This document shows, piece by piece, positions 9,224 to 29,979 of a stretch of DNA of 33,728 nucleotides; the first letter of the stretch is position 1, and each line of letters starts with the position of its first letter. A model generated the notes under the pieces. The model was not told the origin of the DNA, did not search any database, and saw only the letters and a list, made by a program, of their open reading frames with translations. Source of the stretch: Butyrivibrio sp. (lineage in GTDB: Bacteria; Bacillota; Clostridia; Lachnospirales; Lachnospiraceae); the NCBI RefSeq assembly GCF_017433805.1, contig NZ_JAFRGN010000010.1, positions 1 through 33,728 of the forward strand. The letters run 5' to 3'. Made by a program: the position numbers and the translations under genes.

Positions 9224-9265
9224 GTTATTACCTTCCAAGATTTTATAGTCTAGCAAAAGAACTTC

Positions 9266-11085: not shown

Positions 11086-13815
11086 TTATTTCTGGACTGG
11101 CTGATTAGGCACTGCTGGTCCCATATACGCCATAGGAGGGAGCTGTTGCTGCTGAGCCTGTGCCTTCTTGGCATAGTCAGCCAGCTGTGCCTGATATTTC
11201 TGAACGTCCTCTACAAATTTCTGATACTGTGCAGCCTGATACTCCTGGAGCTTTTTAGCATAGTCAGACCACTGTGCCAGATATGCCTGTGCATCCTGTG
11301 TAAATTTCTGGTACTGCTGTGCCTGGTACTCCTGTACCTTCTGAATATATTCAACCTGCTGCTTCTGAATCTGCTGTGCCTGCTCTGACTGCTGCTGCCA
11401 TAAGTTCTTTAAATACTCGTTCATATCCACCTCGTATTTCTGGACATCCTGTACAAACTTGTTGTACTGATGTACCTGATAATTATTAACATCCTGAATA
11501 TACTTGTTGGTCTGAATAGCCCACTTGTTATATTCAGAAACTGCGTACTGTATATACTGCGAACTGAAGCTTATTAACTGATTCTGAGCATCCTGAAGCA
11601 TAGAGATAAACTGTCCTATCATTGCTGGATCAAATGGAAGTCTTGGTATACCCTGCATTCCCTGCATCATGTGCGCTCCTGCAAACAGGCTCATGAGTCT
11701 TGCGTTATACTGATTAGCTGCCTGATTCAGAACTGTTCTATCCATTGTGGATTCTCTGATATCATCCCAAACACTGCTAAGCTCAACAGGAACCTCACCA
11801 TTTGTGATACCTTCTTCTGAATTATTTGTAAGCTCCAGAACAATATCCTTGAGGACATCCTTAACTCTTACAGGTCTGATGATGTATCTGTCACCGGCAA
11901 CTCCACCGTTGGCAATCCTGTAGATATCCACCTTACCGTTTCTGTTATGTGGAATCTGTGGAGCGATCACGCACTGCATTGGAAGATTGGATTCCTTGGC
12001 AGTTCCTTTTTTGATAAATACATTTATAAGCGCCTTCTTAACAAGGTCAGCTGCATTCTTATCCTTGGTTACAGGCTGTACGTACAATACAGGAACTGTG
12101 TCGTGGGTAAGGAGTTTGTCATACCATGGAGTCATGGCGCAGGCCTCAATTCCTTCCTCTGATGCAACCTGATTTTCAATGATTCCTGCATTAAATTTGA
12201 TTCCATCGTTATTAACGAAATATCTGTTGGCACGTCCCTGGCAGGAAACGCTTCCATCCTTATTGACTGAAACAACGTCGTTTGTGCAGATATAAGGAAC
12301 GCCATTAATCTTATCGAGCTTGAAGAATTCATTATCATCAATCTTTCCACTGCTAAGTGAATCAGAATGAATATAAAGAACTCCTGTATGCTTGTCTTTT
12401 ACTGAATAGAACTTCTCATCAAGCTCGTCGTAGATCTTAAGATCAACACCAGGAAGTGGATATCCGATTGAATCGTTGTCAACTTCCTCTGTCTGGATGA
12501 TGCAGGCTCCGCAGGTCTCTGACATTCCATAGCCGTTAACAAATCTAACATCCTTGGCGCCATTATCTTCCATGAACTTGCGATATCTCTTTCTAGCTTC
12601 TGCTGAGAGATAAGCACCGCCTATGATCACCACGTTAACTGATGAGAAATCAGGTACGAACTGCTTGGGGAGCTTGCTCCATGCTTCAAAATAGAAAGGA
12701 GTCACAAACATAGCATTGATCTTGAAATGGCTGATGGACTTAACAAAGAATGGATTCTGGTTAGCCATAGGAAGAAGGACAACGCTGCATCCAAAAGCCA
12801 AAGGCTCATGGAGCTGATTGACAAATCCATATACAGAAGTTGCAACCATTGTGCAGAGTGTTACACAACCCTTCTCAAAGTCAACAAACTTACCACTCTT
12901 TTTCATATTCTCAGACGCCAGGTTCAAAGCCTCATCAGAAAGCGGTGCTGGCTTACTGATACCCTTGGTAGTTCCAGAGGTATGGAATACAAAGGATGAA
13001 GGATCATTGGACTTGGTACCATACTTAATTGCAGTACCTTCATACTTTTCAATGAGATCATCCATGAAAAGAGCTCCATCAACTGTCTTAAGTTCCTTGT
13101 AATTGCTGTTGCTGAAGTTTACAAGGCCCTGATCCATCTTATTGCTGTCGATAGGAACCTTAACAACGATTACATTGCGAAGGCCAAGCTCTGCTTTGAG
13201 CTTAAGGGCATGAACGAGAAGTCTCTTGTTAACAGCCAGGTCATTTATAAAGAGGTCTGTGATACCTTCTTCCTTAATAGCCTTGGCAAGTGGGAACTTC
13301 TCTGAAAGATAAGCTGGTGTGAAACCTGCAATTGATGCACCAGTCATATTAGCTGCGTATACAGCAAAAGAAGACTCGATACAACTGCAGTCAAAGATAG
13401 CGAGTCTTGAATGATTTTCTTCTGTAATTCCAAGAGCTGAGAATACTTCTGCGTACTTCTCCCAATTTCTGAACATCTGTCTGTAGGTGTAGGTACGCTC
13501 CATATCTATAAGAGCAATTCTGTCAAGGCGAGCCTTGCTGGCAGAATTGATGTCTACGATATATTTCCAGCTGCGCTGATAAGCTGCTTTACTAATCTCA
13601 TACTTAGGAGCAGGCCTTCTTGCTGAACTTGTTGCTGGCGCAGGTCTTCTGGCTGAGCTGGTTGCTGGTTTAGCTGCTGCCTTTTTAACGGGTGCTTTTG
13701 TAGTAGCTTTGGCTGTTGTCTTTGCTGCAGTCTTAACAGGCGCCTTTACAGGAGCCTTAGCTGTTGCCTTTTTTACGGATGCTTTTTTTATGTTATCGTT
13801 CTTCTTCGCGCTCAT
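11086..13815 (-). CDS. AMP-forming acyl/aminoacyl ligase (ANL) with K/A/P-rich head and YQ-rich coiled-coil tail
   Basis: The start is the ATG at 13815 (909 aa): GAGGAG lies 6 nt upstream, while the longer frame begins with a TTG at 13845. Residues 1-70 are lysine, alanine and proline rich, histone H1-like, and include a perfect duplication of ATSSARRPAP (51-60 and 61-70). An ANL adenylation domain follows (about 75-650) with HTSGTTKG, NGYGMSE, TND in place of the usual TGD, and a C-terminal NRNGKVD lysine. From about 690 the protein turns into Q/Y-rich helical sequence with repeats of the type YQKFxxDxQxY and DYAKK, ending in a proline-rich tail (QLPPMAYMGPAVPNQ). No carrier domain is present. 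It probably adenylates a carboxylic acid for the ACP or NRPS; the low-complexity ends may mediate assembly with the neighbouring proline-rich protein. Substrate unknown. Confidence 0.88.
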   Translation of the reverse strand: MSAKKNDNIKKASVKKATAKAPVKAPVKTAAKTTAKATTKAPVKKAAAKPATSSARRPAPATSSARRPAPKYEISKAAYQRSWKYIVDINSASKARLDRIALIDMERTYTYRQMFRNWEKYAEVFSALGITEENHSRLAIFDCSCIESSFAVYAANMTGASIAGFTPAYLSEKFPLAKAIKEEGITDLFINDLAVNKRLLVHALKLKAELGLRNVIVVKVPIDSNKMDQGLVNFSNSNYKELKTVDGALFMDDLIEKYEGTAIKYGTKSNDPSSFVFHTSGTTKGISKPAPLSDEALNLASENMKKSGKFVDFEKGCVTLCTMVATSVYGFVNQLHEPLAFGCSVVLLPMANQNPFFVKSISHFKINAMFVTPFYFEAWSKLPKQFVPDFSSVNVVIIGGAYLSAEARKRYRKFMEDNGAKDVRFVNGYGMSETCGACIIQTEEVDNDSIGYPLPGVDLKIYDELDEKFYSVKDKHTGVLYIHSDSLSSGKIDDNEFFKLDKINGVPYICTNDVVSVNKDGSVSCQGRANRYFVNNDGIKFNAGIIENQVASEEGIEACAMTPWYDKLLTHDTVPVLYVQPVTKDKNAADLVKKALINVFIKKGTAKESNLPMQCVIAPQIPHNRNGKVDIYRIANGGVAGDRYIIRPVRVKDVLKDIVLELTNNSEEGITNGEVPVELSSVWDDIRESTMDRTVLNQAANQYNARLMSLFAGAHMMQGMQGIPRLPFDPAMIGQFISMLQDAQNQLISFSSQYIQYAVSEYNKWAIQTNKYIQDVNNYQVHQYNKFVQDVQKYEVDMNEYLKNLWQQQSEQAQQIQKQQVEYIQKVQEYQAQQYQKFTQDAQAYLAQWSDYAKKLQEYQAAQYQKFVEDVQKYQAQLADYAKKAQAQQQQLPPMAYMGPAVPNQPVQK

Positions 13816-13859
13816 TACACTCTCCTCTTCCCATGTTAATTCCAACTAACATGCCTATT

Positions 13860-14305: not shown

Positions 14306-16042
14306 TTATTTCACCCAGTTCATGAACAGCATGTTCTGTCCATAGCTGTATTTATAATCAAGATCCGGGCACAGGCCATTTAGAATCTTAAGGCCATTTC
14401 CTTTTTTCTCAGCAGTTATTGGATCAAACTGCTTGCCATCATCCTTGACGATAGCGGAGATCTCTTTTTCATCTACCACTACCTTGAGGTCAAGGAACTG
14501 GTTCTTTTTCCTGCCAGCAAACTCGATAATGTTTGACATCATCTCCTCTATGCAGAGTCTGACGCGCATTCCAAGTTTTTTGTCTATGTCCTGACCTTCA
14601 AAAAATGTATTGAGTTCTCTGAGTGTATCTACCAGCCCATCCTTGTCGCATGGCACTGAGATGTCGTATACATTCGGCTTATTATCAGGCACTGGAAGTA
14701 AGCTTATAAATCCAAGATTCTCGTTTGATTTCTTTCTTATTCGCTCTGATAAAAAGACAACCAGAAGGAATATCAAAACTGCAGAAATAGGATATCCAAG
14801 CCACATATAATCATTGCCAATTAAGCTTCCGCAGACTATGAGTCCAAGTCCTGTGAGAACTGGCTGTGAGATGCTGATTATCGGAAGGATCGACAACTGT
14901 CCACCCAGTGCATATATGTTAGGAATTATCCATACAAAGGACACCGGAATGATGAATGGAAGCGCCATTCTAAGGGATTTAACAGAGTAGTTAAGAAGTT
15001 CTTCGTTCTCAGCACCCATAAGCATCGCATAAGGCCTTGCCAGTATCATGAAAACTGCTACAAAGCCAACCGCAACCAGTACTGCTACCTTCATTCCCTT
15101 TTTATAAAGCATCAGAACGCCGGCATCATCCTTTTGTCCCTTTAGCATTCCGCCAATAGCATTAAAGGCTTTGCCCATTCCTCCTGATACGCCCTGGCCA
15201 AGGGATGTAGCCTGCGCAAGAAGTGATCCTACAAAAGCTCCATATACGCCGCAGAAAATCTGAGCAAGAATAGCGCACACATAAGAATAAATTACAATGG
15301 CAAAGGTCTGGGATGTAACAGATACTCCATAGTGAACTATTTCTTTTAGAATAGGGCCGGTCTCTGAACCAACTTTGCAGAACTTAAAGGGGCTTCCCTT
15401 AATCTTCCAATCTGCAATGACGATAATGGCTGAAAGAAATGCTCCGGTAATGGTAGCAAGAGCTGCTCCCTTGATACCCATTCCAAGGATCTTTACATAC
15501 AGTACGTCACATACAATATTGGTAACAACGTTTGTTAAGCTGGCTCTTGTAACAAGCTTGGGCTTACCACCAACGTTTCCAAAGCCCAGAAGCGCTGACA
15601 CAAGCATTATCACAGCAGTTCCTGCAAAGTACACTAACAGATAATCTCTTGTGTATTCTCTAAGTGCTTCTTCTCTACATATCACTGCTGTCACGAGGTT
15701 TACACCAAGAATAGCTGTGACTGTAACCACAACACTCAGTATTCCGACACTCGTCATGGAAACCGTATATATGCTGTTAGCTCTTTTTTCCTCTCTTGCT
15801 CCTAGCGCAACCGATGCAAGGACATTGGCTCCTGTATAGAACAGCATGGCAATTGTTGTTAACAGGCCAACTACGGGAAGACACAAGTTAACAGCAGAAA
15901 AGGCTTCCGTTCCCAGAAATCTTCCCATGAGGATACCATCAACAATCGCGTTGACATTCTGTATCAGCATGGCTGCAATAGATGCTGTAAGGAACTTTTT
16001 CATTGAGGATGATACAAGGTAGCTGTTTCTTTTTTGTTCCAA
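14306..16042 (-). CDS. MATE exporter fused to an RsbW-like HATPase domain (copy 1, intact ATP site)
   Basis: 578 aa from a TTG start supported by AAGGAG 5 nt upstream; the first internal ATG lacks a ribosome site. Residues 1 to about 440 form a multi-helix MATE (MatE) transporter. Residues 450-578 are a HATPase_c domain of the RsbW/SpoIIAB anti-sigma kinase type. The N box has E500-M-M-S-N504, the G1 box D534-D-G536-x-x-F539, and the G2 box G548-N-G-L, all as in ATP-binding members. RsbW-type domains phosphorylate a serine on STAS proteins, and a STAS-kinase gene lies 2.3 kb upstream. The transporter sits in an NRPS operon, so product export is the likely job, with the cytoplasmic HATPase as control or signalling module. 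The fusion is visible directly; the coupling is inference. Confidence 0.92.
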   Translation of the reverse strand: MEQKRNSYLVSSSMKKFLTASIAAMLIQNVNAIVDGILMGRFLGTEAFSAVNLCLPVVGLLTTIAMLFYTGANVLASVALGAREEKRANSIYTVSMTSVGILSVVVTVTAILGVNLVTAVICREEALREYTRDYLLVYFAGTAVIMLVSALLGFGNVGGKPKLVTRASLTNVVTNIVCDVLYVKILGMGIKGAALATITGAFLSAIIVIADWKIKGSPFKFCKVGSETGPILKEIVHYGVSVTSQTFAIVIYSYVCAILAQIFCGVYGAFVGSLLAQATSLGQGVSGGMGKAFNAIGGMLKGQKDDAGVLMLYKKGMKVAVLVAVGFVAVFMILARPYAMLMGAENEELLNYSVKSLRMALPFIIPVSFVWIIPNIYALGGQLSILPIISISQPVLTGLGLIVCGSLIGNDYMWLGYPISAVLIFLLVVFLSERIRKKSNENLGFISLLPVPDNKPNVYDISVPCDKDGLVDTLRELNTFFEGQDIDKKLGMRVRLCIEEMMSNIIEFAGRKKNQFLDLKVVVDEKEISAIVKDDGKQFDPITAEKKGNGLKILNGLCPDLDYKYSYGQNMLFMNWVK

Positions 16043-16095
16043 AGCTGCTCCTTCCTGCCTAAATGGCTCGGGTGCTATTGGATATTACAGGTTTA

Positions 16096-17763
16096 TCATT
16101 CAACTGAAGAGCGGATGATCTTCATGGATGAAGTTCTGGCAAAAGGCTTATCTCTGAATTCAACAATCTGGATATTCTTGAAGGCTGCAAGCCTTGTGTT
16201 GGCATCATCTACATACTTCTGAATATCTTCCTTTGCCTTCTCTACGTTTCCATCAGGGAGCTGCTCAGGATCTATGTATATCTGTGCAGCAATATTATTG
16301 TTCTTCTCATAAACTACAACTTCATTTATTGCAGGCTGGTTCATGAGAACATTCTCAAGTTCCTCAGGGGATACGTTTTCTCCATTAGGAAGGATGATAA
16401 GATTCTTGATTCGGCCGCTGATATGAAGGAACTCGTCCTCATCAAAGAAGCCGATATCTCCCGTGTGGAACCATCCACCGCGCATTGCCTCTTTTGTTGC
16501 CTCTTCATTCTTGTAATAGCCCAGCATTACGCTTGTTCCTTTAACACAGATCTCGCCTTCTCCTCTCTCATTAGGATTCTCGATCATTACTTCAAGGGAA
16601 TCCATGATCAGACCAACGCCGTCTGGCTTGGTATATTTCAATGTATCTGATGAAATGATAGGTGAGCACTCGGTAATGCCGTAGCCATAAACAATCTCAA
16701 TACCGAAATCTTTAAGGCCGTAGTAGTACTTGTCCTCAAGGACAGCTGCTCCTACATCAAATTCAAAGAAATTCGTTCCAAGAATGGAAAGAGCTTCCTT
16801 GAACATTTCACGTTTTTCTTTAGGTGTAAGGTCAGGGTTTGCTTTATTGGCAGCAAGCTGCTTCTTAACTTCTTCTTCGATGCCCTTTTCCTTGATATTT
16901 TTCCAGATCATCTTGTAGCACAGCTCAACAAACAGAGGAACTGTTACCATAAGAGTTGGATTATCTATAGCCATATCTCTGAACATATATCTTGGATTTG
17001 AAATCAGATATACGGTACAACCAGCTATCAAATGAGGAATCTGAGTGCAGTTAAGTCCCAGAACATGGTGCTGTGGAAGCACCATCATGGCACCTTCTGT
17101 TACTCCCAAGTGGTTGGTAATGGCTATAGAATTATCAATAAAGTTTGTCTGACTCAGCATTACGCATTTGCTGGCGCCAGTTGTTCCAGATGTGAACATA
17201 AAGAAGGATGCTGCACTTGGATCAAGGGTCTGTTTAAAATATTCATCATAACCCTCTTCAATGAGCTTTTTACCTTCTTCTCTAAGGTCCGGAATCTCTT
17301 CCAGAGAATGAATCTCTATTCCAAGGTCCTTTTCTATGGTCTTTGCCTTTTCTTCATACTTGTGGTCATAGAACAGAACTGTTGCATCACTGAGTTTTAA
17401 CATCTTTTCAAGGGTCTCAACTTCAAGTCCCTTATCAAGGTGTACTGAAATGTTGTTGCTGCAGCCTGCGCTCCAGAAAACATTCATAAGTTCATAGGTA
17501 TTGTCGCCCATAAGTGCTAAATGAGCTCTGGTTCCATATTTCTTGTTAAAACAGCTTCCAAGTGCCTCTACATGTCCTTTTACTTCCTCTGGCATTCTGT
17601 CATAATGCTTAGTATCATGATCGTAGTCAGTATATGTGTAAAATGGTGTGTCCGGGTGAGTCTTTACTCTAAAATCAATAACATCTCTTAAAGTCTTTAC
17701 TTCTTCAAAGCTTTGTAAATACAGATTGGTTCTTTTGCCTTTAACTATGATGTTTTCTGACAT
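16096..17763 (-). CDS. AMP-forming fatty acyl-CoA/acyl-ACP ligase
   Basis: 555 aa, ATG at 17763 preceded by AGGAGGG. A typical full-length ANL enzyme: ATP loop MFTSGTTGASK, GYGITE, HTGD, the hinge ISGRIKNLI, and the catalytic lysine in RTSSMKI near the C-terminus. It lies 37 bp downstream of a stand-alone ACP gene, so loading a fatty or other acid onto that ACP (or first onto CoA) is the likely role, giving the acyl starter for the N-terminal C domain of the NRPS. Chain length or acid type cannot be read from the sequence by eye. It could instead be a general long-chain acyl-CoA synthetase, but the operon argues against that. Confidence 0.9.
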   Translation of the reverse strand: MSENIIVKGKRTNLYLQSFEEVKTLRDVIDFRVKTHPDTPFYTYTDYDHDTKHYDRMPEEVKGHVEALGSCFNKKYGTRAHLALMGDNTYELMNVFWSAGCSNNISVHLDKGLEVETLEKMLKLSDATVLFYDHKYEEKAKTIEKDLGIEIHSLEEIPDLREEGKKLIEEGYDEYFKQTLDPSAASFFMFTSGTTGASKCVMLSQTNFIDNSIAITNHLGVTEGAMMVLPQHHVLGLNCTQIPHLIAGCTVYLISNPRYMFRDMAIDNPTLMVTVPLFVELCYKMIWKNIKEKGIEEEVKKQLAANKANPDLTPKEKREMFKEALSILGTNFFEFDVGAAVLEDKYYYGLKDFGIEIVYGYGITECSPIISSDTLKYTKPDGVGLIMDSLEVMIENPNERGEGEICVKGTSVMLGYYKNEEATKEAMRGGWFHTGDIGFFDEDEFLHISGRIKNLIILPNGENVSPEELENVLMNQPAINEVVVYEKNNNIAAQIYIDPEQLPDGNVEKAKEDIQKYVDDANTRLAAFKNIQIVEFRDKPFARTSSMKIIRSSVE

Positions 17764-17800
17764 ATGCCCTCCTAAGCATGCAATTATTTAGTTTCATGAA

Positions 17801-18025
17801 TTAGCCCAGCAGATCAACGATATCTTTGACCGTTTTAATCTTTGCAAGCTGGTCATCATCGATTCTCACGTTGTAACGTCTTTCAGCTTCATCAATCATT
17901 GTGATAAGTGATAATGAATCCAGCCCAAGTTCTGATCTGATCCTGGTATCCATAGTGACCTTTTCCGTGTCAAATTCTGCATACTCTCGGAGAAAATCCA
18001 CCACGTCTTTGAATAAGTCTTGCAT
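17801..18025 (-). CDS. Stand-alone acyl carrier protein
   Basis: 74 aa from ATG 18025, with AAGGGGG 4 nt upstream. The phosphopantetheine motif is LGLDSLSL with Ser37, followed by an acidic helix (MIDEAERRYNVRI) typical of type II carriers. It is first in the operon, followed by an acyl-AMP ligase, so it is probably a dedicated carrier handing an acyl chain to the NRPS rather than the fatty-acid-synthesis ACP. A D-alanyl carrier (DltC-like) is an alternative, but no dltB or dltD relative is nearby. Confidence 0.9.
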   Translation of the reverse strand: MQDLFKDVVDFLREYAEFDTEKVTMDTRIRSELGLDSLSLITMIDEAERRYNVRIDDDQLAKIKTVKDIVDLLG

Positions 18026-18065
18026 GTTTCCCCCTTCATAGGTTTTAGTATTGTATTTTTAATAT

Positions 18066-18110
18066 AAAAAAGCGCATTGCATCAGAAATAAAATTTCAAA
18101 ATGCTATGCG
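18066..18110 (-). terminator. Leader terminator (candidate attenuator) upstream of the ACP gene
   Basis: In the minus-strand transcript CGCATAGCAT (18110-18101) pairs with ATGCAATGCG (18082-18073) with one mismatch; further GAAA/TTTC pairing extends the stem, and a run of six T follows (18071-18066). It lies between the predicted promoter and the ACP start, so transcripts must read through it to enter the biosynthetic operon. Confidence 0.65.
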
Positions 18111-18113
18111 TTT

Positions 18114-18140
18114 CTACTCAGAATTAATGCGTTTCTCCAT
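18114..18140 (-). CDS. Possible 8-codon leader peptide MEKRINSE
   Basis: ATG at 18140 has GGGGGAG exactly 6 nt upstream, then MEKRINSE and a TAG stop four bases before the terminator stem. An in-frame ATG five codons earlier has no ribosome site. Ribosome site, size and position resemble attenuation leader peptides, but there is no run of a single control amino acid. The frame is too short to prove by coding signal. Confidence 0.35.
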   Translation of the reverse strand: MEKRINSE

Positions 18141-18190
18141 AGTCTGCTCCCCCATGAAAACGGGCAAAATCTATATGCGCTACATCATTA

Positions 18191-18220
18191 ATTGTATAAC
18201 TATAATGCGAATATAGTCAA
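18191..18220 (-). promoter_or_regulatory. Predicted sigma-A-type promoter of the biosynthetic operon
   Basis: On the minus strand TTGACT (18220-18215) and TACAAT (18196-18191) are 18 bp apart, each one base from consensus. Predicted leader length to the ACP start is about 160 nt, which holds the short peptide and terminator hairpin. The rest of the gap 18026-18360 is AT-rich, with the inverted repeat and terminator listed separately. Confidence 0.55.
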
Positions 18221-18271
18221 TCAAAAGCAGGCACTTTTGTACGTTATTTAATAAAGTTTTTATATTTAATT

Positions 18272-18292
18272 TTGTCAGATATTGTCTGACAA
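18272..18292. repeat. Perfect 8-bp inverted repeat, possible operator
   Basis: Arms TTGTCAGA and TCTGACAA are separated by 5 bp. It lies about 50 bp upstream of the -35 box of the ACP operon and just past the terminator of the STAS-kinase gene. It could be a regulator binding site or a secondary transcript hairpin. No family can be assigned. Confidence 0.4.
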
Positions 18293-18297
18293 TTTAA

Positions 18298-18335
18298 AAC
18301 CTCTGCAACAGCAAACATGCACCATTGCAGAGGTT
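18298..18335 (-). terminator. Terminator of the STAS-kinase gene
   Basis: Perfect 11-bp stem AACCTCTGCAA / TTGCAGAGGTT with a 16-nt loop, followed in the minus direction by TTTTAAATT. It starts 26 bp after the STAS-kinase stop codon and separates that gene from the ACP operon, which therefore needs its own promoter. Confidence 0.75.
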
Positions 18336-18360
18336 GTTATGCCATTATTTTATTTAACCA

Positions 18361-19608
18361 TCATAAATCCTTAGGCCACCACTCTCCTACTGGAGGAATT
18401 TTATCAAATTCGTTGAAGAACAGTTCTTTTGCCCTGCCAATTTCCATCATCTTGGCCTGAGGATCTTCATCAGGAAGCTGAAGGATTGCAATGAACTGTT
18501 TCAGACGACCAATTCCTCGGAAGTATGAATCATAGGTTGCAATCTCCGCATCGCTGTGACCAGCAAAGTACAGCTGAAGAAGTCTGTTCCAATAGGTCTG
18601 CATGAAGTTCTTTCTCTCCTCATACTCCTTGTCAGAACCAATGTGGAAGAAATCTCTTATCATAGCATCATTGAACTTACTAGCATATGCTCCAAGCTCG
18701 TCTGCCAGGAGGAATACAGGATACATATCATAGAATTCAAAGAAAGGATGTGAAGTTGACATATCTCCTACATCGATGAGCACAAGGTCTTTATTCTTGT
18801 CCACCATGATATTTCCCGGATGGTAATCTCCGTGTATTGCAGTTTTACGGTCAGGAACTTCAAAGAGGAGCTTCTGGAAACGAGCCATCTCATCCTCAGA
18901 GAAGATCTGTGCAAGAGCTGCTGTAGAACCCAGCATCATGTTCTTCATGGATGGAACGTTGTCTCCTGTAAGCTCAGCACTGTGAATCTTTTTAAGAAGA
19001 TCACACACCTTAACTGTCATCTCATCCTTCTCATCAGGATGCTCCAACATGTAGTCCATAACTGTAACAGGTGAAAGAAGCTCAAAAACGACACCGTAAG
19101 CGTTGTCCGCATGAACCATCTCGTAGGAAAGTGCTGTGGAAATACCCTTTACAAATACCTGACGGGCCATTTTCTTTTCCTGCTCTACACGGTCATATGG
19201 TACAGGCGCGCCAGCGTTATATACCTTAACTACCTTCTCGTCATCAAGCTTATAAACTGTACCAAGTGTACCTTTTCCAATGATCTTAAGACCATCAAGA
19301 GAGATTTCTCTTGGCTTTCTATGCACATTAAATACATCACTAAAGCCTGTCAGATCAAATACCTCATAGATCTTCTGTGAGATATTGATGACATCAAATG
19401 GCTTGTCTGTCTGCTTTTTGATACCAAGGAGTACACGAAGACCGGCACTGGAAATGTAATCAAGTTCATCTCCGTCCATGACAATTGCCTGGAAATCTGC
19501 TCCAGAAATAATACCCTGTAACTCAGTGTTTACAGAATCACTATTGTTCGCGTCGATACGTTCAGGTAATAAAATGATTAATTTGCCGTTTTCTACCTGT
19601 GATTTCAT
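18361..19608 (-). CDS. STAS domain fused to APH/choline-kinase-like phosphotransferase
   Basis: 415 aa, ATG 19608 with GGAGAG 6 nt upstream. Residues 1-95 are a STAS (SpoIIAA/RsbV-like) domain; the acceptor region DYISSAGLRVLL carries Ser54 at the usual phosphoserine position, two residues before the Gly. Residues 105-400 form an APH-like kinase: glycine loop IGKGTLGTVYKL, VVKVY lysine, catalytic loop HGDYHPGNIMV and metal motif LIDVGD, all apparently complete. In known partner-switching circuits STAS proteins are phosphorylated by HATPase kinases and dephosphorylated by PP2C phosphatases; both partners are encoded nearby. It is divergently transcribed from the operon with the phosphatase. 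Whether the kinase phosphorylates its own STAS domain, a neighbour or a small molecule cannot be told. No sigma factor gene is in the window. Confidence 0.9.
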   Translation of the reverse strand: MKSQVENGKLIILLPERIDANNSDSVNTELQGIISGADFQAIVMDGDELDYISSAGLRVLLGIKKQTDKPFDVINISQKIYEVFDLTGFSDVFNVHRKPREISLDGLKIIGKGTLGTVYKLDDEKVVKVYNAGAPVPYDRVEQEKKMARQVFVKGISTALSYEMVHADNAYGVVFELLSPVTVMDYMLEHPDEKDEMTVKVCDLLKKIHSAELTGDNVPSMKNMMLGSTAALAQIFSEDEMARFQKLLFEVPDRKTAIHGDYHPGNIMVDKNKDLVLIDVGDMSTSHPFFEFYDMYPVFLLADELGAYASKFNDAMIRDFFHIGSDKEYEERKNFMQTYWNRLLQLYFAGHSDAEIATYDSYFRGIGRLKQFIAILQLPDEDPQAKMMEIGRAKELFFNEFDKIPPVGEWWPKDL

Positions 19609-19671
19609 AGCGTTCTCTCCTTTATATCACTAATCAACAAACAGCTTTTTCTTGCTGTGAGATACGCCATA

Positions 19672-19680
19672 ATTATAACA
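19672..19680 (-). promoter_or_regulatory. Extended -10 promoter of the STAS-kinase gene
   Basis: The minus strand reads TGTTATAAT, a perfect -10 with the extended TG, about 63 bp before the start codon. No good -35 is present. A near-identical box precedes the exopolysaccharide operon. Confidence 0.5.
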
Positions 19681-19698
19681 TTAGCGATTATATTTAAA

Positions 19699-19727
19699 CG
19701 CTTATGCGAAGATATTTTATATATAAT
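19699..19727 (+). promoter_or_regulatory. Possible promoter of the formyltransferase operon
   Basis: A TATAAT at 19722-19727 lies in the very AT-rich 170-bp gap between the divergent genes; the matching -35 (CGCTTA) is poor. The position suits the plus-strand operon, but AT-rich DNA gives such boxes by chance. Confidence 0.3.
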
Positions 19728-19803
19728 TTATTTTTATATTATTATTTAATTATCTATAAATCGTTTTTTATGAGATTATATGAGTATGGGAGATTATTCA
19801 AAA

Positions 19804-20610
19804 ATGAAAGTAGCTTATGTAGGAATCGACATATTATATCCGGTATTAACAAGCCTATATGATACAGGCTGTGACATACTCAAGATTTTCACATGCAAGA
19901 CCGATAATGTTACAGAGTTTAATACTAAGACTATTGAATTCGCAAATAGTCACAACATACCTCTGCAAATTGAGAAAATAACTCAGGATGACTTGTATGA
20001 TCTGGTTGCCCTGGGCTGTGAATTTGTGCTCTTTGGAGGGTATTACTACAGGATCCCTGTAATTGATGAGCTAAGAATCGTTAATACTCATCCAGCTCTT
20101 TTACCACTTGGTAGAGGAGCATGGCCAATGCCTCTAACTATACTAAAGGGGCTTACTGAAAGTGGCGTAACCATGCACAAGATGGTTCTTGCTCTTGATG
20201 AGGGTGACGTAATACTCCAAGAGAAAGTTCCCGTATTTCCTGATGATAACCTGATCACACTCACTGAAAGGCAGTGGTCAGTTATTCCAAAGATGGTAAA
20301 TACGCTAGTTTCAGACTTTGATAATCTCTGGGACAGCGCCAAGCCTCAGGCTGGACAGGCCGAGTACTGGGAAATGCCCGAGGAAAGCGAGTATACAGTA
20401 ACTGATAAAATGAACTTCGAACAGGCTGATCTGATACTCAGAGCATTTTTATCTTATGAATGCTTCTATATTAATACTGTTACAAATGAAAAATATGAAA
20501 TGATAGGAGCCACAGCTCACAAGGGAAATGTCCCCGATAGTTTGCACAACACTCATGTCTTTCCGCTGGCAGATGGATATGTACTGTGTGACAGAGTAAG
20601 GAGTTTATAA
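19804..20610 (+). CDS. Free-standing formyltransferase (Fmt/ArnA-type fold)
   Basis: The start at 19804 gives MKVAYVG, the usual N-terminus of the family, with GGGAG 11 nt upstream; in-frame ATGs at 19780 and 19786 are alternatives. The catalytic triad of 10-formyl-THF-dependent transferases is visible: Asn and His in VNTHPALLP and Asp in ALDEGDVI (residues 102, 104 and 140 counted from 19780). About 270 aa is shorter than methionyl-tRNA formyltransferase, and the C-terminal part lacks an obvious tRNA-binding domain. It probably formylates an amine on a sugar or peptide. First gene of the plus-strand operon with a transferase, an exporter and a phosphatase. N-formylation of the peptide product is a possible role, by analogy with linear gramicidin, but is inference. 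Confidence 0.85.
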   Translation: MKVAYVGIDILYPVLTSLYDTGCDILKIFTCKTDNVTEFNTKTIEFANSHNIPLQIEKITQDDLYDLVALGCEFVLFGGYYYRIPVIDELRIVNTHPALLPLGRGAWPMPLTILKGLTESGVTMHKMVLALDEGDVILQEKVPVFPDDNLITLTERQWSVIPKMVNTLVSDFDNLWDSAKPQAGQAEYWEMPEESEYTVTDKMNFEQADLILRAFLSYECFYINTVTNEKYEMIGATAHKGNVPDSLHNTHVFPLADGYVLCDRVRSL

Positions 20611-20618
20611 GCTATTCT

Positions 20619-21482
20619 ATGATCACAGCTGAAATATCTTTAGACCTAAAAGAAAAAATATCTGATATTTACAATCGATTTGGTTATAAGGACAGCGCCC
20701 ATAGCTTTGAATCCATGTACATTTGGAGAGAGGAAATGGGTCTATCTTTCGTGTATTCAGATGATTTCTATTCTGTGCAGGAAGCTTCTAAAGGGCCTTA
20801 TTCCTGGTTTTTCCCCGTTGGAAGCAAAGATTCCAAGATAGAATTCATAAGTGACCAGCTTGATAATGGTAATCTTCATTTTTATTATATGACTTCTGAT
20901 GATGTTTCTTTTATTGAGAAGCATTTTCCAGACCAGTTCACTATACGTGAAGCTCCTGAGAGTAGCGAATATATCATGAGCAGGGACATAATGGAAAATC
21001 TTCCCGGTAGTTCTTTTTCCAAGGACAGAGGCCATATTAATAAGATGCTTCGAGAGCACACTTTTGAAACAAAGAGCATCCAATCTGTCCCCAAGTCAGT
21101 CATTTATGATATTTCTGCAGAATGGGATGCCAGCAAACATATATTTGAAAACCTTCCTGATAAAGCTGCCAACATCAGCGTTATCGAGCATCTGGATGTT
21201 CTGGATATAGAAGGAATTGTCCTATATATGGATGGTTCTCCCTGCGCTGTATGCGGTGGTTTTAAGATGAACAGCAACACTGTTGACTGTGTTATCCAGA
21301 AAACCTCACAAAAGCTACAGGGATTGACCTACTACCTCAGGCAGGAATATGCAAGATCACTTCCACCAGAAATACAGTTTTTGAATTGGGAAGAAGATTT
21401 AGGAATTGAAGGGCTTAGAAGAGCCAAACAGTTGATGCAGCCCGTAAACATGATAAATATGTACATTGGTGAATCCAAATGA
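20619..21482 (+). CDS. DUF2156 / phosphatidylglycerol lysyltransferase C-terminal-like (GNAT-fold) protein
   Basis: 287 aa. The late motif NWEEDLGIEGLRRAKQLMQP is characteristic of the DUF2156 and LPG-synthase C-terminal family, in which a double GNAT-like fold transfers an aminoacyl group from tRNA to lipid or another acceptor. There are no membrane helices, so it is a soluble member lacking the flippase part of MprF. It begins 8 bp after the formyltransferase stop (nearest AAGGAG is about 15 nt before the ATG) and overlaps the next gene by ATGA. The substrate cannot be read. Tailoring of the same molecule as the formyltransferase is a reasonable guess. Confidence 0.8.
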   Translation: MITAEISLDLKEKISDIYNRFGYKDSAHSFESMYIWREEMGLSFVYSDDFYSVQEASKGPYSWFFPVGSKDSKIEFISDQLDNGNLHFYYMTSDDVSFIEKHFPDQFTIREAPESSEYIMSRDIMENLPGSSFSKDRGHINKMLREHTFETKSIQSVPKSVIYDISAEWDASKHIFENLPDKAANISVIEHLDVLDIEGIVLYMDGSPCAVCGGFKMNSNTVDCVIQKTSQKLQGLTYYLRQEYARSLPPEIQFLNWEEDLGIEGLRRAKQLMQPVNMINMYIGESK

Positions 21483-23239
21483 AAAATATTCAAGGCATCT
21501 CTCCATTCTCTAAGCAAATGTTCATAAGACAGTACGTTCCAGTACTGATATCAGCTTTCGTATTTGCTCTTGCAGATATGGCAGATGCTCTTGTTGTTGG
21601 CAACAGGATGGGTGCCACAGGCCTTGGTGCTATCGCCTTCACGCTTCCTGTCTATATGTTTTACAACGTTATAATGCATTCCTTCGGCCTTGGAGGCGCT
21701 ATCGACTTTTCCACCAAGATGACCGAGGGTAATGAAGAGCGTGCCAGAAGCTCTTTTCAGGGAGTTCTGGTAACACTTCTTGTTATCAGCACAGCAATCG
21801 TGATTATAGGCCACATAGGAATGAACGGGCTTTTGTTTATCCTCGGTGTTCCGACTTCATACCCGGAGCTATATGAAGCCTCCAAGACCTATCTTGGCAT
21901 TATTCTTACAGCTGCACCTTTATTTTTCTTTGACTACAGCATTGGTTACTATCTTAGAAACGACGACTACGAAAAACAGTCCTCAATCGCTGCTGGAATT
22001 GGAAACATAGCAGATCTTCTCCTTAACATTATTCTTGTTCTTGTTTTCAACATGGGAGTTAGAGGTGCTGCTTATGCAACCTTTACCGGACTGGTTTTAT
22101 CAAGCGCAGTGGAACTGTTCTTTATGCTACAAAAGACATCACACCTTAAGCTTACGCCCTTTAAACCTGACTTTTCGAATATCGTTTCAATATATAAGCT
22201 TGGCGTTGCCTCTTTTATCAGCTATTTGTACTCATTTGTCTTTATCCTTATCGGAAACAACGCAATGATAAGATTAGGTGGGGATGCAGGCGTCGCTGTA
22301 TTTGATATTATAGGAAACCTGGGAAACTTAGGCTTTTACATCTTTAACGCAGCAGCTATGGCTACTCAGCCAATAATCAGCACCTATGAGGGCGAATGTA
22401 AATACGATGAATGCGACAGGGTTCAGACTCTTTCCTTTATCACAACTGCTGTTTCCGCAATTGCTCTGGCCGTTCTACTCAATATTTTTGCTCCTCAGGT
22501 ATGCCAGTTGTTCGGACTACACGATCCGTCAATGATCGCATTTGGCAGTACTGCCATCAGGATATACTCAGCGAGCCTATTGTTTATAGGCTTTAATGTA
22601 TCAATGTCCAACTACTATACATCAAGGAATATCCCAGCTCCTCCTTTTGTCACCTCTACCCTTCGAGGAGTGGTTATTCTCCTTCCAGTGACCTTCGCAT
22701 GTATAGCACTTGGAAAAGATGCATTCTGGTTCACCTATGTAGTTACTGAAGCGGCCTCATTCGTATTAGTCTATATCTACCTTAAGATAAAGCCACCTAA
22801 GACTGCTCGTATAGCTGAAGAGAGAATTTACCACACTTCTCTTGGAAGCGATGCAGAGAAAATAGCTCCTACAGTAGAGCAGATAGAAGTTTTCTGCGAA
22901 AAATGGGATGCAGCTCCCAAGCAGCTATACTACATCCAGATGACAGTTGAGGAGGTTTGTTCAGCCATCATTGTAAATGGCTTCCAGAAATCTGGAAGAA
23001 ATGCTTCAAACCTCATTGAGCTTACAGTAGTAGCGCAGGAAAACGAAGATTTGTCACTACACATCAGGGATAACGCAACTTCTTTTAATCCTTTTGGAAT
23101 GAGTAAGAAATCTCTTTTCGAAATAGAGAATAAAGACAGCGACTTCAACGCTCTTGGAATGGATATTATAAAGAAAAAAGCTAAATCTTTTTACTATAGA
23201 AGGTATCAGGGATTCAATACAATGGTGGTGAAGATATGA
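21479..23239 (+). CDS. MATE exporter fused to a HATPase domain (copy 2, degenerate ATP site)
   Basis: 586 aa; its ATG overlaps the preceding stop and its stop overlaps the next start (ATGA at both), so translation is coupled. Residues 1 to about 450 are a MATE transporter. Residues 462-586 match the RsbW-like HATPase of the first MATE gene in position and length but differ in key residues. The N box reads E492-V-C-S-A496, with Ala where the Mg-binding Asn belongs. The G1 box reads D531-N-A533-x-x-F536, lacking Gly. The G2 part ALGMDII is kept. The domain may bind ATP poorly or act as a pure binding module. It lies directly before the PP2C phosphatase gene. Confidence 0.9.
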   Translation: MKNIQGISPFSKQMFIRQYVPVLISAFVFALADMADALVVGNRMGATGLGAIAFTLPVYMFYNVIMHSFGLGGAIDFSTKMTEGNEERARSSFQGVLVTLLVISTAIVIIGHIGMNGLLFILGVPTSYPELYEASKTYLGIILTAAPLFFFDYSIGYYLRNDDYEKQSSIAAGIGNIADLLLNIILVLVFNMGVRGAAYATFTGLVLSSAVELFFMLQKTSHLKLTPFKPDFSNIVSIYKLGVASFISYLYSFVFILIGNNAMIRLGGDAGVAVFDIIGNLGNLGFYIFNAAAMATQPIISTYEGECKYDECDRVQTLSFITTAVSAIALAVLLNIFAPQVCQLFGLHDPSMIAFGSTAIRIYSASLLFIGFNVSMSNYYTSRNIPAPPFVTSTLRGVVILLPVTFACIALGKDAFWFTYVVTEAASFVLVYIYLKIKPPKTARIAEERIYHTSLGSDAEKIAPTVEQIEVFCEKWDAAPKQLYYIQMTVEEVCSAIIVNGFQKSGRNASNLIELTVVAQENEDLSLHIRDNATSFNPFGMSKKSLFEIENKDSDFNALGMDIIKKKAKSFYYRRYQGFNTMVVKI

Positions 23240-24915
23240 AAAAGAAAACCAATAAGACCAGAAGATTATCCATTAGTTCAAAAATAGCATTAGGTATAGC
23301 CGTTACGCTCCTTGGCCTTGTGGCTATCCTGGAGTTTATTACCTATGCTGCTTTTAACAAATCAATGGACCAGGAGTACCAAAACAATGCCATGAGCCTT
23401 GCGAAGTCAGTCAGTCTGACTCTTGATAAATCCTCAACCATTGCGCTTATAAATGAGGTAATGAACATTTATAATTCGGTAGAGAATAAGGTGGGTACGC
23501 AGAATGCGGGCAGCGATGAATACAACGAATATATTGCGAACTTCCAGTCTATTGAACAGAGTCCTAATTATTATCGCTTCTCAGAGCATCTAAATGACAT
23601 AAGGCAGTGTTACCTTGCTGAGTCACTGTATATCATCTGCATCGATGCGGTTAACAAAAAATCTGTCTATATAGTTGATGGTTCTTCAGAACCTTGTCAT
23701 CCTGGTGATTTTGATCCGTTATTTGAGATGAATTACGGAATCCTTGATAATCCAGAGGCTGGTTTCCCACCCTACACAACCATTACCCCAGAGTATGGAT
23801 GGCTGGTTTCAGCCGGCGCTCCTTTTTATGATGAAGAAGGAAATGTTGTAGCATATATCTTCGTTGACTTAAACGAAAGTGCAGTAAAAAAGGTCATAAA
23901 CAAATTTATTTTTGCCTTCATAGTTCTGGGCCTTGTAATTGCTGTGTTTGTTTGCCTGATCTACCTTGCAGTTGTTAAAAGAAATCTTATCAGGCCAATC
24001 AACAAACTCTCTGATGCTGCTCTTTCTTATAATGAAAATGCCGAGGGCGAAGTATTTGCTAATCTGAAAATAAGAACGGGAGACGAAATAGAGAATCTTG
24101 CTTCTGCCATGAAACGTATGGAGCAGGATATCAAGGAATATATTGCCAACATTACCAGTATCACAGCTGAAAGAGAAAGAATCGGCGCAGAACTCAACGT
24201 AGCAACACAGATTCAGTCAGACATGCTGCCCAAGATTTTCCCTAAGTTTGCTGACAAGAAGGAATATGAAGTCTTTGCATCCATGAACCCCGCAAAAGAG
24301 GTTGGTGGAGACTTCTATGATGTATTTGAAATAGATGAGACGCACCTTGGACTTGTTGTAGCCGATGTATCTGGAAAGGGCGTTCCTGCTGCCCTGTTCA
24401 TGGTCATTGCCAAGACTCTTATCAAGAACCGCGCCATGGTCGGTGGTTCACCATCTGAGGTGCTGGAATACGCCAACGATCAACTCTGTGAAGGTAACGA
24501 TGCTGGATTTTTTGTAACTGTCTGGCTCGCCATCGTCGACATTACTACAGGTAAAGGTGTTGCAGCCAATGCTGGTCATGAGCATCCGGCTATCCGAAGG
24601 AAAGATGGTCAGTTTGAGCTTTCCATCTACAAACACTCTATGGCTGTTGGCACCTTTGAAGGCCTCAAGTTCAAAGAGCATGAGTTTGAGCTAAACCATG
24701 GCGATACTTTGTTCTGCTACACAGATGGTGTCACAGAAGCTACTGATGCAGGTAATGAGCTCTTTGGTAACGACAGACTGATAAATGCCTTGAATACAGC
24801 TGATGACAGCACTGTTGAAAACCTCTGCAAGAGTGTCAAGAAGTCCATCGACGACTTCGTTGGCGAGGCTCCACAGTTTGATGACATCACAATGTTGGGC
24901 TTCAAGTTCTTCTAA
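23236..24915 (+). CDS. Membrane sensor PP2C/SpoIIE-type serine phosphatase
   Basis: 559 aa. Membrane helix at about 16-38, an extracytoplasmic Cache-like sensor region (about 40-218), a second helix at about 221-246, a HAMP-like linker (about 247-305), then a PP2C_SIG/RsbU-SpoIIE phosphatase from about 340. The metal-binding aspartates are all visible: GGD359FYD, VAD377VSGKG, YTD497GVTEA and FD549-D550 ITML. Such enzymes dephosphorylate STAS-domain phosphoserines and reset partner switches. The STAS domain encoded across the divergent promoter region is the obvious candidate substrate. The stimulus would be extracellular and is unknown. Last gene of the operon, followed by a terminator. Confidence 0.93.
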   Translation: MKKKTNKTRRLSISSKIALGIAVTLLGLVAILEFITYAAFNKSMDQEYQNNAMSLAKSVSLTLDKSSTIALINEVMNIYNSVENKVGTQNAGSDEYNEYIANFQSIEQSPNYYRFSEHLNDIRQCYLAESLYIICIDAVNKKSVYIVDGSSEPCHPGDFDPLFEMNYGILDNPEAGFPPYTTITPEYGWLVSAGAPFYDEEGNVVAYIFVDLNESAVKKVINKFIFAFIVLGLVIAVFVCLIYLAVVKRNLIRPINKLSDAALSYNENAEGEVFANLKIRTGDEIENLASAMKRMEQDIKEYIANITSITAERERIGAELNVATQIQSDMLPKIFPKFADKKEYEVFASMNPAKEVGGDFYDVFEIDETHLGLVVADVSGKGVPAALFMVIAKTLIKNRAMVGGSPSEVLEYANDQLCEGNDAGFFVTVWLAIVDITTGKGVAANAGHEHPAIRRKDGQFELSIYKHSMAVGTFEGLKFKEHEFELNHGDTLFCYTDGVTEATDAGNELFGNDRLINALNTADDSTVENLCKSVKKSIDDFVGEAPQFDDITMLGFKFF

Positions 24916-25107: not shown

Positions 25108-26211
25108 TTAAGTGTTTCCTCCAAGACGCCAGATGGATACTCTGTTTATTCCACCCTCACGAGCTGCCTGTATCCAGAGCTTTAAGGTCTCCTGGTCTGC
25201 GTACCACACCTGATGGGTAAGACCGCTTTCATCCGTGTAGCTAAACCACATCGCACCGCTAGCTGCATCTCTTTGCGCCTCGGCGTTCTTCTGCGACATT
25301 ATGCCAACGGCATCTGCCTGTCCGATCTGCGCCACATTTCCGCCTGCTGCAAAATCAAAACCGCCTGTGGCAAGAGCAAGGTTCTTCCGGCCGGGAAGAG
25401 TGTTCATCTTGGCCGCCAGCTCTTTTATCCATGAAGGATTGGCCTTGGCGCCGGGCTCTGTTCCGTATCCGTGAAGGTTGTAGCACATCATCACGTACTC
25501 TGCGTTGGAAGGCCAGCTATAGTTCTGGAAAGGAGCCGATGGCTCGAAGACGACCCTAAGGGCAAGTCCCTCATTTGCAGCTGCCTGGGAAAGCTTTGTA
25601 ACAAAACTGTTGAACAGCTGCCAGAGTGCATAGTCCTTTTTGATGGCCTCGTAGTCGATCTCAACTCCAGTGCATCCAAGACTCTTTGTAAGTGCGATCA
25701 CATCAGCTACATGCTGGTTTGCAAGATCATCATTACCGATAAGGGCATACAAAAGGTTTGTATCCTTGAGGGAAGACCCCTTATCAAGTAGTTTGTCATT
25801 TACAAATGTAAGATAAATGTTCCTGTCCTTGAGAGTACCGTTTTTGCTTAGCTTATTGTACGTCTCGGTGGTATCCTCGGGAATGAAGGGCCTGTTATTG
25901 ACATCATAGTAGGCAGCGAAAAAGCAGATGGTGTCCAGCTCATCGCCAATAGCCTTCAGCTCAGCATCAGCCGTGGCATAGTCCCAATAGGGATACCATA
26001 CCGAAATATCTGAAGTGCCTGTAGTTTCTGTAGCTGTATGTATCTCTTCTGTTTTCATAGTATCGCCGGCCTGACTTGTGGCGCGGTGTTCACTCTCTAC
26101 TATTGTGATGGTCTCTTTCTGGCTGCCGATATCACTGGTCTGACTTTCGCATGCTGTAAACATCATCGCCAGAGTGCAGAAGAGCAAAACACTTAAAAGC
26201 ATTTTTCTCAA
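25108..26211 (-). CDS. GH18-like lipoprotein (chitinase / SpoVL-YaaH-type fold)
   Basis: 367 aa from a TTG (MRKMLLS...); an ATG three codons in is the alternative. A signal peptide with a lipobox ends at Cys21 (FTAC). The mature part has the GH18 barrel signature GVEIDYE, with D186 and catalytic-type E188; the first Asp of the usual DGxDxDxE is Thr181. SWPSNAEYVMMCYNLHGYG and the closing VSIWRLGG are typical of GH18 relatives. It likely cleaves beta-1,4-linked N-acetylhexosamine polymer at the outer face of the membrane. It ends the exopolysaccharide operon, so trimming or release of the polymer is a plausible role. A binding-only role is possible. Confidence 0.82.
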   Translation of the reverse strand: MRKMLLSVLLFCTLAMMFTACESQTSDIGSQKETITIVESEHRATSQAGDTMKTEEIHTATETTGTSDISVWYPYWDYATADAELKAIGDELDTICFFAAYYDVNNRPFIPEDTTETYNKLSKNGTLKDRNIYLTFVNDKLLDKGSSLKDTNLLYALIGNDDLANQHVADVIALTKSLGCTGVEIDYEAIKKDYALWQLFNSFVTKLSQAAANEGLALRVVFEPSAPFQNYSWPSNAEYVMMCYNLHGYGTEPGAKANPSWIKELAAKMNTLPGRKNLALATGGFDFAAGGNVAQIGQADAVGIMSQKNAEAQRDAASGAMWFSYTDESGLTHQVWYADQETLKLWIQAAREGGINRVSIWRLGGNT

Positions 26212-26232
26212 AATCCCAAACCCCCGTCCTTA

Positions 26233-28089: not shown

Positions 28090-28101
28090 AACTCTCTCCG
28101 C

Positions 28102-29964: not shown

Positions 29965-29979
29965 AGCTGTCCTCTACTA

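Follow-up and report, generated by a model that had tools for sequence, protein, structure and literature searches.

The contig NZ_JAFRGN010000010.1 of Butyrivibrio sp. carries, between positions 14306 and 24915, genes for two MATE exporters that each bear an RsbW-like HATPase domain at the C-terminus, together with genes for a STAS domain fused to a kinase-like domain and for a membrane phosphatase of the PP2C/SpoIIE type. The window is the whole 33,728-nucleotide stretch in which this region lies, P-numbers denote its proteins, L-numbers denote loci (fetched regions) from our survey and the family is Lachnospiraceae; whole-genome scans covered the 3.45-Mb genome. The genes of the region are as follows.

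14306..16042, minus strand: P0001, MATE exporter with a C-terminal HATPase that has the N-box Asn and the DDG and GNGL motifs (Pfam, motifs)
16096..17763, minus strand: P0002, acyl/AMP ligase in the biosynthetic operon of the exporter (Pfam AMP-binding, 3.1e-42)
17801..18025, minus strand: small acyl carrier protein (ACP) of 74 residues (Pfam PP-binding, 4.8e-12)
18361..19608, minus strand: P0003, STAS domain (SSAGL motif) fused to an APH-type kinase-like domain (Pfam)
19780..20610, plus strand: P0004, formyltransferase-like protein (Formyl_trans_N), first gene of the plus-strand operon (Pfam, 2.7e-15)
20619..21482, plus strand: P0005, LPG_synthase_C (DUF2156) protein, aminoacyl-transferase-like (Pfam, 8.2e-25)
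21479..23239, plus strand: P0006, MATE exporter with a degenerate C-terminal HATPase (Pfam, motif alignment, Foldseek)
23236..24915, plus strand: P0007, membrane sensor-HAMP-SpoIIE (PP2C-type) phosphatase (Pfam SpoIIE, 2.3e-48)

The plus-strand genes run in the order P0004, P0005, P0006 and P0007, the gene for P0006 overlapping the preceding and the following one by 4 bases each, and P0004 and P0003 point away from each other, their starts lying 171 bases apart.

The original prediction, made from the letters of the window, had placed an RsbW-like HATPase on the C-terminus of each exporter, a STAS domain on a kinase and a PP2C/SpoIIE-type phosphatase in the membrane, and its coordinates and domains are right because both gene order and Pfam matches confirm them. 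P0001 matches MatE (3.4e-18, 66.3 bits, cut-off 24.9) and HATPase_c_2 (2.9e-9, 37.5 bits, above the cut-off of 27.4); the corresponding values for P0006 are 8.5e-25 (87.8 bits, cut-off 24.9) and 2.7e-4 (21.4 bits, below 27.4). P0003 contains STAS (6e-10) and APH (2e-16), its kinase-like part being of the APH/TIGR02172 kind, with a score below the TIGR02172 cut-off, and neither a Hanks nor a GHKL kinase. In addition to its SpoIIE domain P0007 has a weak HAMP match (19.7 bits, cut-off 25), two hydrophobic segments at approximately residues 11-40 and 217-252, and intact copies of the motifs EVGGDFYD, VADVSGKG and FDDITM, which we take to belong to the metal site. The column that we take to be the STAS phospho-acceptor is Ser in all 37 aligned STAS domains, 32 of which have the full SSAGL.

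A HATPase profile of 13 rows, including both window domains and one free kinase, matches SpoIIAB (2.3e-5) and RsbW (1.2e-3) chains in the PDB, and one built on 16 exporter domains alone does so as well (1.6e-5 and 4.1e-3, respectively). A model of P0006, obtained from a 4-row alignment and with a mean predicted local distance difference test (pLDDT) score of only 64.1, gives a MATE fold by Foldseek (6fhz, E 4.1e-12); MATE and MurJ structures were returned, with no separate HATPase match among the 50 matches listed. An AlphaFold model of P0003 computed without an alignment was too poor (mean pLDDT 41.8) and was discarded. Pfam revealed no sigma factor in the window proteins scanned, and a home-made sigma profile is without a match in the window, in agreement with what had been noted before. 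Among the same Pfam-scanned proteins a diguanylate cyclase domain is likewise absent.

Recurrence beside HATPase-bearing exporters

A first set of loci was obtained by searching 299 family genomes with the HATPase profile and taking regions of at most 20 kb around fused matches, among the matches listed. The second set comes from order-wide (295 genomes) and phylum-wide (398 genomes) draws, with family members in those draws left out; from it 40 rows outside the family were taken, nearly all from frames of ∼564-640 residues, and the same-size rows G875:C47, G838:C4 and G557:C499 are among those left out. As controls we used 46 plain MATE genes in 39 of 40 regions, among the matches listed, the region left out (L139) being a HATPase locus and not a MATE one. 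Open reading frames were labeled with profiles built on window and own-genome proteins. A Pfam recheck of 30 neighbors and fusions confirmed all STAS, SpoIIE, formyltransferase, LPG_synthase_C and APH labels submitted, and among six further MATE-HATPases it recovered HATPase_c_2 in five (three above the cut-off) and not in L163 (E 0.01), which is still counted as a MATE-HATPase on the home-made profile. Two proteins tried as partner-switch HATPases were rejected, one at 11001 in L147 that Pfam identifies as an SDF symporter and one at 4993 in L047 that it identifies as a histidine kinase; the class-versus-neighbor counts exclude these two mislabels as well as the AMP-ligase-HATPase of L154, and the STAS-or-SpoIIE count is unaffected by the mislabels. 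Also left out were L048_1 (442 residues, cut by a contig end) from the motif and headline counts, L063 (MATE part cut by a contig end) from the MATE counts and L180, a SpoIIE-HATPase with no MATE part. The resulting 97 full MATE-HATPases, phylum-wide and including the two of the window, L001 and L003, thus come from sets picked by the HATPase domain and not by neighbors.

Co-occurrence in other genomes, the check proposed with the original prediction, was found both for switch parts and for genes of nonribosomal peptide synthetases (NRPS). A STAS or SpoIIE gene lies within 6 kb of 42 of the 97 MATE-HATPases (40 of 95 without the two of the window), as compared to 0 of the 46 plain MATE genes, and NRPS or adenylation genes are nearby in 20/97 and 0/46 cases, respectively. 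Twenty-six same-strand neighbor pairs are separated by less than 60 bases; in 25 the neighbor is a STAS, SpoIIE or free HATPase protein and in the remaining one (L154) it is an AMP ligase with a HATPase. The prediction had further named a STAS-kinase as partner, and here STAS does recur beside the exporters, but the usual partner is a free STAS protein, with STAS-APH a variant (any APH neighbor within 6 kb for 7/97).

Two MATE trees disagree on whether a single fusion event lies behind all MATE-HATPases: one places 58 MATE-HATPases apart from 8 plain MATE rows (support 99), and in the other plain MATE rows fall among the MATE-HATPases, on weaker branches. In a HATPase tree 59 MATE-borne domains stand apart from 26 free ones (100).

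Two classes of exporter HATPase and a recurring cassette

The SpoIIAB N-box contains a Glu and, at the fourth position after it, an Asn that binds Mg. When the exporter domains are aligned to SpoIIAB the Asn is kept in 67 of the 97, P0001 included, and lost in 30, P0006 included (one of the 30, L178, being scored so through an alignment gap). The Glu is kept in all 97, and so in 30/30 of the Asn-losers. In the ATP motif that follows, the Asp is retained by 67/67 of the Asn-keepers but by only 15/30 of the losers, so that the nucleotide site erodes while the residue expected to meet STAS persists. A direct contact of RsbW Glu49 with phosphorylated Ser56 in RsbV is described in PMC7340262, and in our reading of the motif this Glu would correspond to the invariant N-box column. 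All of the N, G1 and G2 boxes are intact in P0001; in P0006 the N-box Asn and a G1 Gly are both replaced by Ala and the Glu is kept. Judged by these motifs P0001 has the look of a competent kinase and P0006 that of a pseudokinase; the two window domains, presented as alike in the original prediction, are thus both RsbW-like and both on MATE exporters, but they are not equivalent.

The classes also differ in their neighbors. A same-strand SpoIIE gene accompanies 12/13 Asn-losers in the family and 11/17 outside it, as against 4/45 and 2/22 Asn-keepers (Fisher 2e-8 and 4e-4, from tests that treat genes of one genome and of near relatives as independent, which they are not). For a same-strand second HATPase the corresponding fractions are 8/13 and 8/17 versus 5/45 and 1/22, and for a same-strand STAS gene 7/13 and 9/17 versus 8/45 and 2/22. 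All three motifs (N, G1 and G2) are intact in 9/9 free HATPases from family cassettes, with L063 included and with L056 and L057 nearly alike.

The cassette that recurs comprises STAS, a formyltransferase and/or LPG_synthase_C protein, MATE-HATPase, sensor-SpoIIE and a free HATPase kinase. The order in L061 is STAS, MATE-HATPase, formyltransferase, sensor-SpoIIE and free HATPase; in L065 it is formyltransferase, LPG_synthase_C, MATE-HATPase, SpoIIE and HATPase, with the STAS gene farther upstream; and in L068 it is STAS, a formyltransferase-LPG_synthase_C fusion (also found in L067), MATE-HATPase, SpoIIE and HATPase. In L142, from outside the family, the genes are those for STAS, formyltransferase, LPG_synthase_C, MATE-HATPase and a fusion of SpoIIE with HATPase, all Pfam-checked save the formyltransferase. 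Homologues of P0004 are present in the cassettes of L061, L063, L064, L065, L067, L068, L142 and L150, and a STAS-APH protein adjoins a MATE-HATPase in L080 and L090 as it does in the window. L057 (7123-8865), L076 (6420-8180) and L163 (6077-7681) encode proteins of the GH3 family next to MATE-HATPase and switch genes or in their vicinity, a bacterial GH3 context that may hint at an exported product.

Searches with P0001 returned only two loci, the near-identical L001 and L002, the MATE-HATPase of L001 being 57% identical to P0001. On the minus strand of the window P0003 is followed, after a gap of 335 bases, by the ACP, the acyl ligase, P0001, a short Pro-rich protein and P0013, and then by a beta-lactamase-like protein and an NRPS; the entries for P0013 and the NRPS are:

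11086..13845, minus strand: P0013, second AMP-binding enzyme, with a long Gln-rich tail (Pfam AMP-binding, 2e-39)
2..9256, minus strand: NRPS, cut at the window edge, with 4 condensation, 3 adenylation and 3 carrier stretches (Pfam)

In L001 the NRPS gene order is the same, and a free STAS gene of 98 residues, an ACP, an acyl ligase and the MATE-HATPase correspond to the window order of STAS-APH, ACP, acyl ligase and P0001. The window NRPS is the likely maker of the product exported by P0001, and from this gene order the STAS-APH protein may be the partner of P0001, of P0006 or of both.

A proposed partner switch with a transporter output

Partner-switch modules wired to MATE exporters are a real and recurring arrangement, as the domains, motifs, operon structure, recurrence and class difference described above establish, and one for which we found no earlier description. 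On balance we favor, with confidence a little better than even, the view that the locus is a partner-switching module with a transporter output in place of a sigma factor, and our best reading of the exporter-borne pseudokinase is that it forms the STAS-binding output end of the switch. We infer the STAS binding, phosphorylation, gating, signal and cargo of this scheme as follows. The membrane phosphatase P0007 would sense an outside signal and dephosphorylate the STAS serine, an RsbW-like kinase would rephosphorylate it, and unphosphorylated STAS would dock on the MATE HATPase domain and change transport activity in one direction or the other. In the P0006 class the exporter HATPase would be a STAS-binding pseudokinase, with Glu kept and the Asn and often other ATP residues lost, so that phosphorylation would fall to a separate kinase; exporters of the P0001 class may instead have the kinase in their own HATPase. 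The STAS of the window would be STAS-APH, and its kinase either the P0001 domain, which as the missing kinase of the P0006 operon is a guess, or a free HATPase elsewhere in the genome, where two were seen. P0005 and P0004 would make a formylated aminoacyl product or lipid that P0006 moves outward, by analogy to MprF.

Candidate trans-acting kinases do exist, since free HATPases occur elsewhere in this genome: L005 has a free STAS-HATPase pair and L004 has STAS, HATPase and SpoIIE in one locus. A third MATE-HATPase (L003) has no labeled switch part in the 12 kb around it, and further STAS or SpoIIE genes lie in L007, L006 and, as a 562-residue STAS protein, L009. Over the whole genome at E 0.001 there are 9 HATPase_c_2 matches (4 above the cut-off), some of the weak ones probably sensor kinases, 5 STAS matches and 4 SpoIIE matches (3 above the cut-off). 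Beside STAS genes, L004 (4424-5047) and L007 (4586-5125) encode proteins of 207 and 179 residues with the N-box-like stretches EETLGM and EEMLSM, perhaps further degenerate HATPases.

Several results weigh against this view. In 55 of the 97 cases no STAS or SpoIIE gene lies within 6 kb, and the Asn-losers L158 and L159 (near-identical), L169 and L172, all outside the family, have no switch part within that distance, which the scheme leaves unexplained. The association between class and neighbors is strong in count and modest in independent events; the MATE-part tree has ∼5 changes between the Asn-kept and Asn-lost states, and an independent-pairs test on it has 3 supported pairs only, too few to reach significance. 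Because the search profiles contain relatives of P0006 this class may be over-sampled, and its degenerate domains are weak by Pfam, with P0006, L061 and L087 below the cut-off and L163 without a match at E 0.01. Conservation of the Glu falls short of proving STAS binding, as the residue may be the catalytic base. Compared with the cassettes of several relatives, the plus-strand operon of the window is short of a free STAS and a free kinase, having the STAS-APH gene beside it instead, and a second HATPase is also missing from L062, L064, L067 and L090; moreover, STAS-APH may serve P0001 and not P0006, because L001 has a free STAS gene at the same place. In a SpoIIE tree P0007 groups apart from most other cassette phosphatases, and in one locus, L087, the free kinase of a cassette with MATE-HATPase and SpoIIE is immediately followed by an ECF-type sigma gene (Pfam; 6435-6935).

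An alternative that we regard as unlikely is that STAS and HATPase are a docking pair, serving as a switchable or constitutive tag that ties biosynthetic enzymes to the exporter, such that export is coupled rather than gated. Fusions of STAS or HATPase with further enzymes support a docking role. In L179 (5787-7391, 24 bases away) and L170 (1654-3273, 3 kb) an NRPS condensation domain bears a fused STAS domain upstream of a MATE-HATPase; in L154 (5974-7977) an AMP-binding enzyme whose C-terminus is a HATPase_c_2 domain (22.9 bits, below the cut-off) adjoins a MATE-HATPase, with an NRPS nearby; and the STAS-APH fusions beside MATE-HATPases (window, L080, L090) and the NRPS or adenylation genes near 20 of the 97 exporters point the same way. 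There are also STAS-APH-HATPase triple fusions, for which we know of no described counterpart, in L042 (12726-14306), L081, L082, L083 and L084, one of them Pfam-confirmed, and SpoIIE is present in 4 of these 5 regions (not L084). Most STAS neighbors are free proteins, however, and the same-strand sensor phosphatase of 23/30 pseudokinase loci points to regulation. A tentative and possible extension, in which we have less confidence than in the switch itself, combines docking with switching: across the phylum, STAS and RsbW-like domains may connect small-molecule biosynthesis to export as a plug and socket switched by phosphorylation, with the socket (often a pseudokinase) on the exporter, the plug either free STAS or built into an enzyme (STAS-condensation, STAS-APH), and a membrane phosphatase and a kinase setting the locking, so that export of natural products or modified lipids would be switched without a sigma factor.

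We give little credence to a second alternative, in which the exporter is the sensor, its HATPase sequestering or phosphorylating STAS according to transport state and STAS acting on a distant regulator, possibly a sigma factor. The kinase motifs kept in P0001-class HATPases would suit it, as would the 55 exporters that have no STAS or SpoIIE neighbor and the sigma gene of L087, but the P0006-class domain has lost kinase residues and a separate kinase is often kept. Nor were sigma genes found with most cassettes. The phosphatase-linked class has 13 family loci (L055, L056, L057, L061-L068, L087 and the window, with the truncated L063 in and L090 out), in 11 of which no sigma gene was found with PF04542, searched in 13 genomes among the matches listed, or with a home-made ECF-type profile run on all fetched family regions. 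In L055 an ECF-type sigma gene lies ∼2 kb from the cassette. Because the home-made profile also matches 5 of the 39 plain MATE control regions (L114, L129, L135, L136 and L138), sigma genes are not enriched near cassettes. A sigma switch is still conceivable in L087 alone. Of the 8 PF04542 matches that the genome of the window contains, all 6 of those among the matches listed are on other contigs.

Less probable still is that the switch parts are ordinary cluster-situated transcription regulators and the MATE HATPase a dimerization or relic domain with no switch role: partner switches are best known for sigma factor control, and the other STAS, HATPase and SpoIIE genes of this genome could feed one network, yet STAS and SpoIIE neighbors track HATPase-bearing and not plain MATE genes (42/97 versus 0/46) and the STAS-facing Glu is invariant although the ATP residues decay.

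The transporter-output switch that we favor resembles the SpoIIAA/SpoIIAB/SpoIIE-sigma F and RsbV/RsbW/RsbU-sigma B systems in having a STAS domain with a phosphorylatable Ser, relatives of the GHKL kinases, the exporter domains matching SpoIIAB and RsbW chains by profile, and a PP2C/SpoIIE phosphatase. It differs in that the searches of the window revealed no sigma factor, MATE exporters carry the anti-sigma-like domains as fusions and one of the two HATPases is without kinase residues. MprF combines a lysyl-phosphatidylglycerol synthase domain and a flippase in one protein. The likeness here is an LPG_synthase_C enzyme beside a transporter whose superfamily also contains lipid flippases (structures of MurJ being among the fold matches); the differences are that the genes are separate, that the transporter is a MATE protein and not an MprF flippase domain and that a formyltransferase and a switch are added. 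SiaABCD of Pseudomonas aeruginosa, as the accessible part of PMC7647112 describes it, shares a sensor PP2C phosphatase, a phosphorylated antagonist-type target and a non-transcriptional output, that output being a diguanylate cyclase bound by SiaC rather than, as here, a transporter that carries the HATPase itself; the sensor phosphatase of the window scores 92.7 bits against the NCBIfam SiaA model, below its cut-off of 700. In Mycobacterium smegmatis the paralogues RsbW1, RsbW2 and RsbW3 split the kinase and binding roles, RsbW1 and RsbW3 being kinase-negative in the assay given in PMC7693655; this split and the output of SiaABCD are precedents for the switch proposed here, but the binding paralogue there holds a sigma factor and here it is part of an exporter. 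Neighboring genes for HATPase kinases, STAS and PP2C proteins have been described with proposed non-sigma outputs (cyclic di-GMP enzymes, a chemoreceptor), transporters going unmentioned in the accessible portion of PMC9239204, and a HATPase-family regulator of antibiotic biosynthesis has been reported in Streptomyces (PMC9137472). A search of titles and abstract starts of the open literature, with subscription papers and preprints outside its scope, returned no MATE-HATPase fusion and no partner switch acting on a MATE protein among the matches listed.

If correct, the proposal would mean that reversible STAS binding exerts direct control over a family of bacterial exporters, extending partner switching from gene control to transport. 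The arrangement in Lachnospiraceae and related bacteria suggests that export of a home-made molecule may be opened or closed by phosphorylating a small protein, which would offer a way into the timing of non-ribosomal product release in these bacteria, and the kinase-competent and pseudokinase versions of one exporter domain would form a natural experiment.

Surroundings of the region

P0013 (11086-13845) has an Ala/Lys-rich start and a long, repetitive Gln/Tyr-rich tail. An Rfam scan of the window at gathering thresholds gave no match. A promoter scan found 20 promoter-like sites as compared to 28.6 in shuffles, fewer than expected by chance, and therefore we base no claim about transcription on it. 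The minus-strand genes at 25108-33090, which encode a GH18-like protein, two proteins resembling polysaccharide deacetylases and a membrane glycosyltransferase, probably form an exopolysaccharide cluster.

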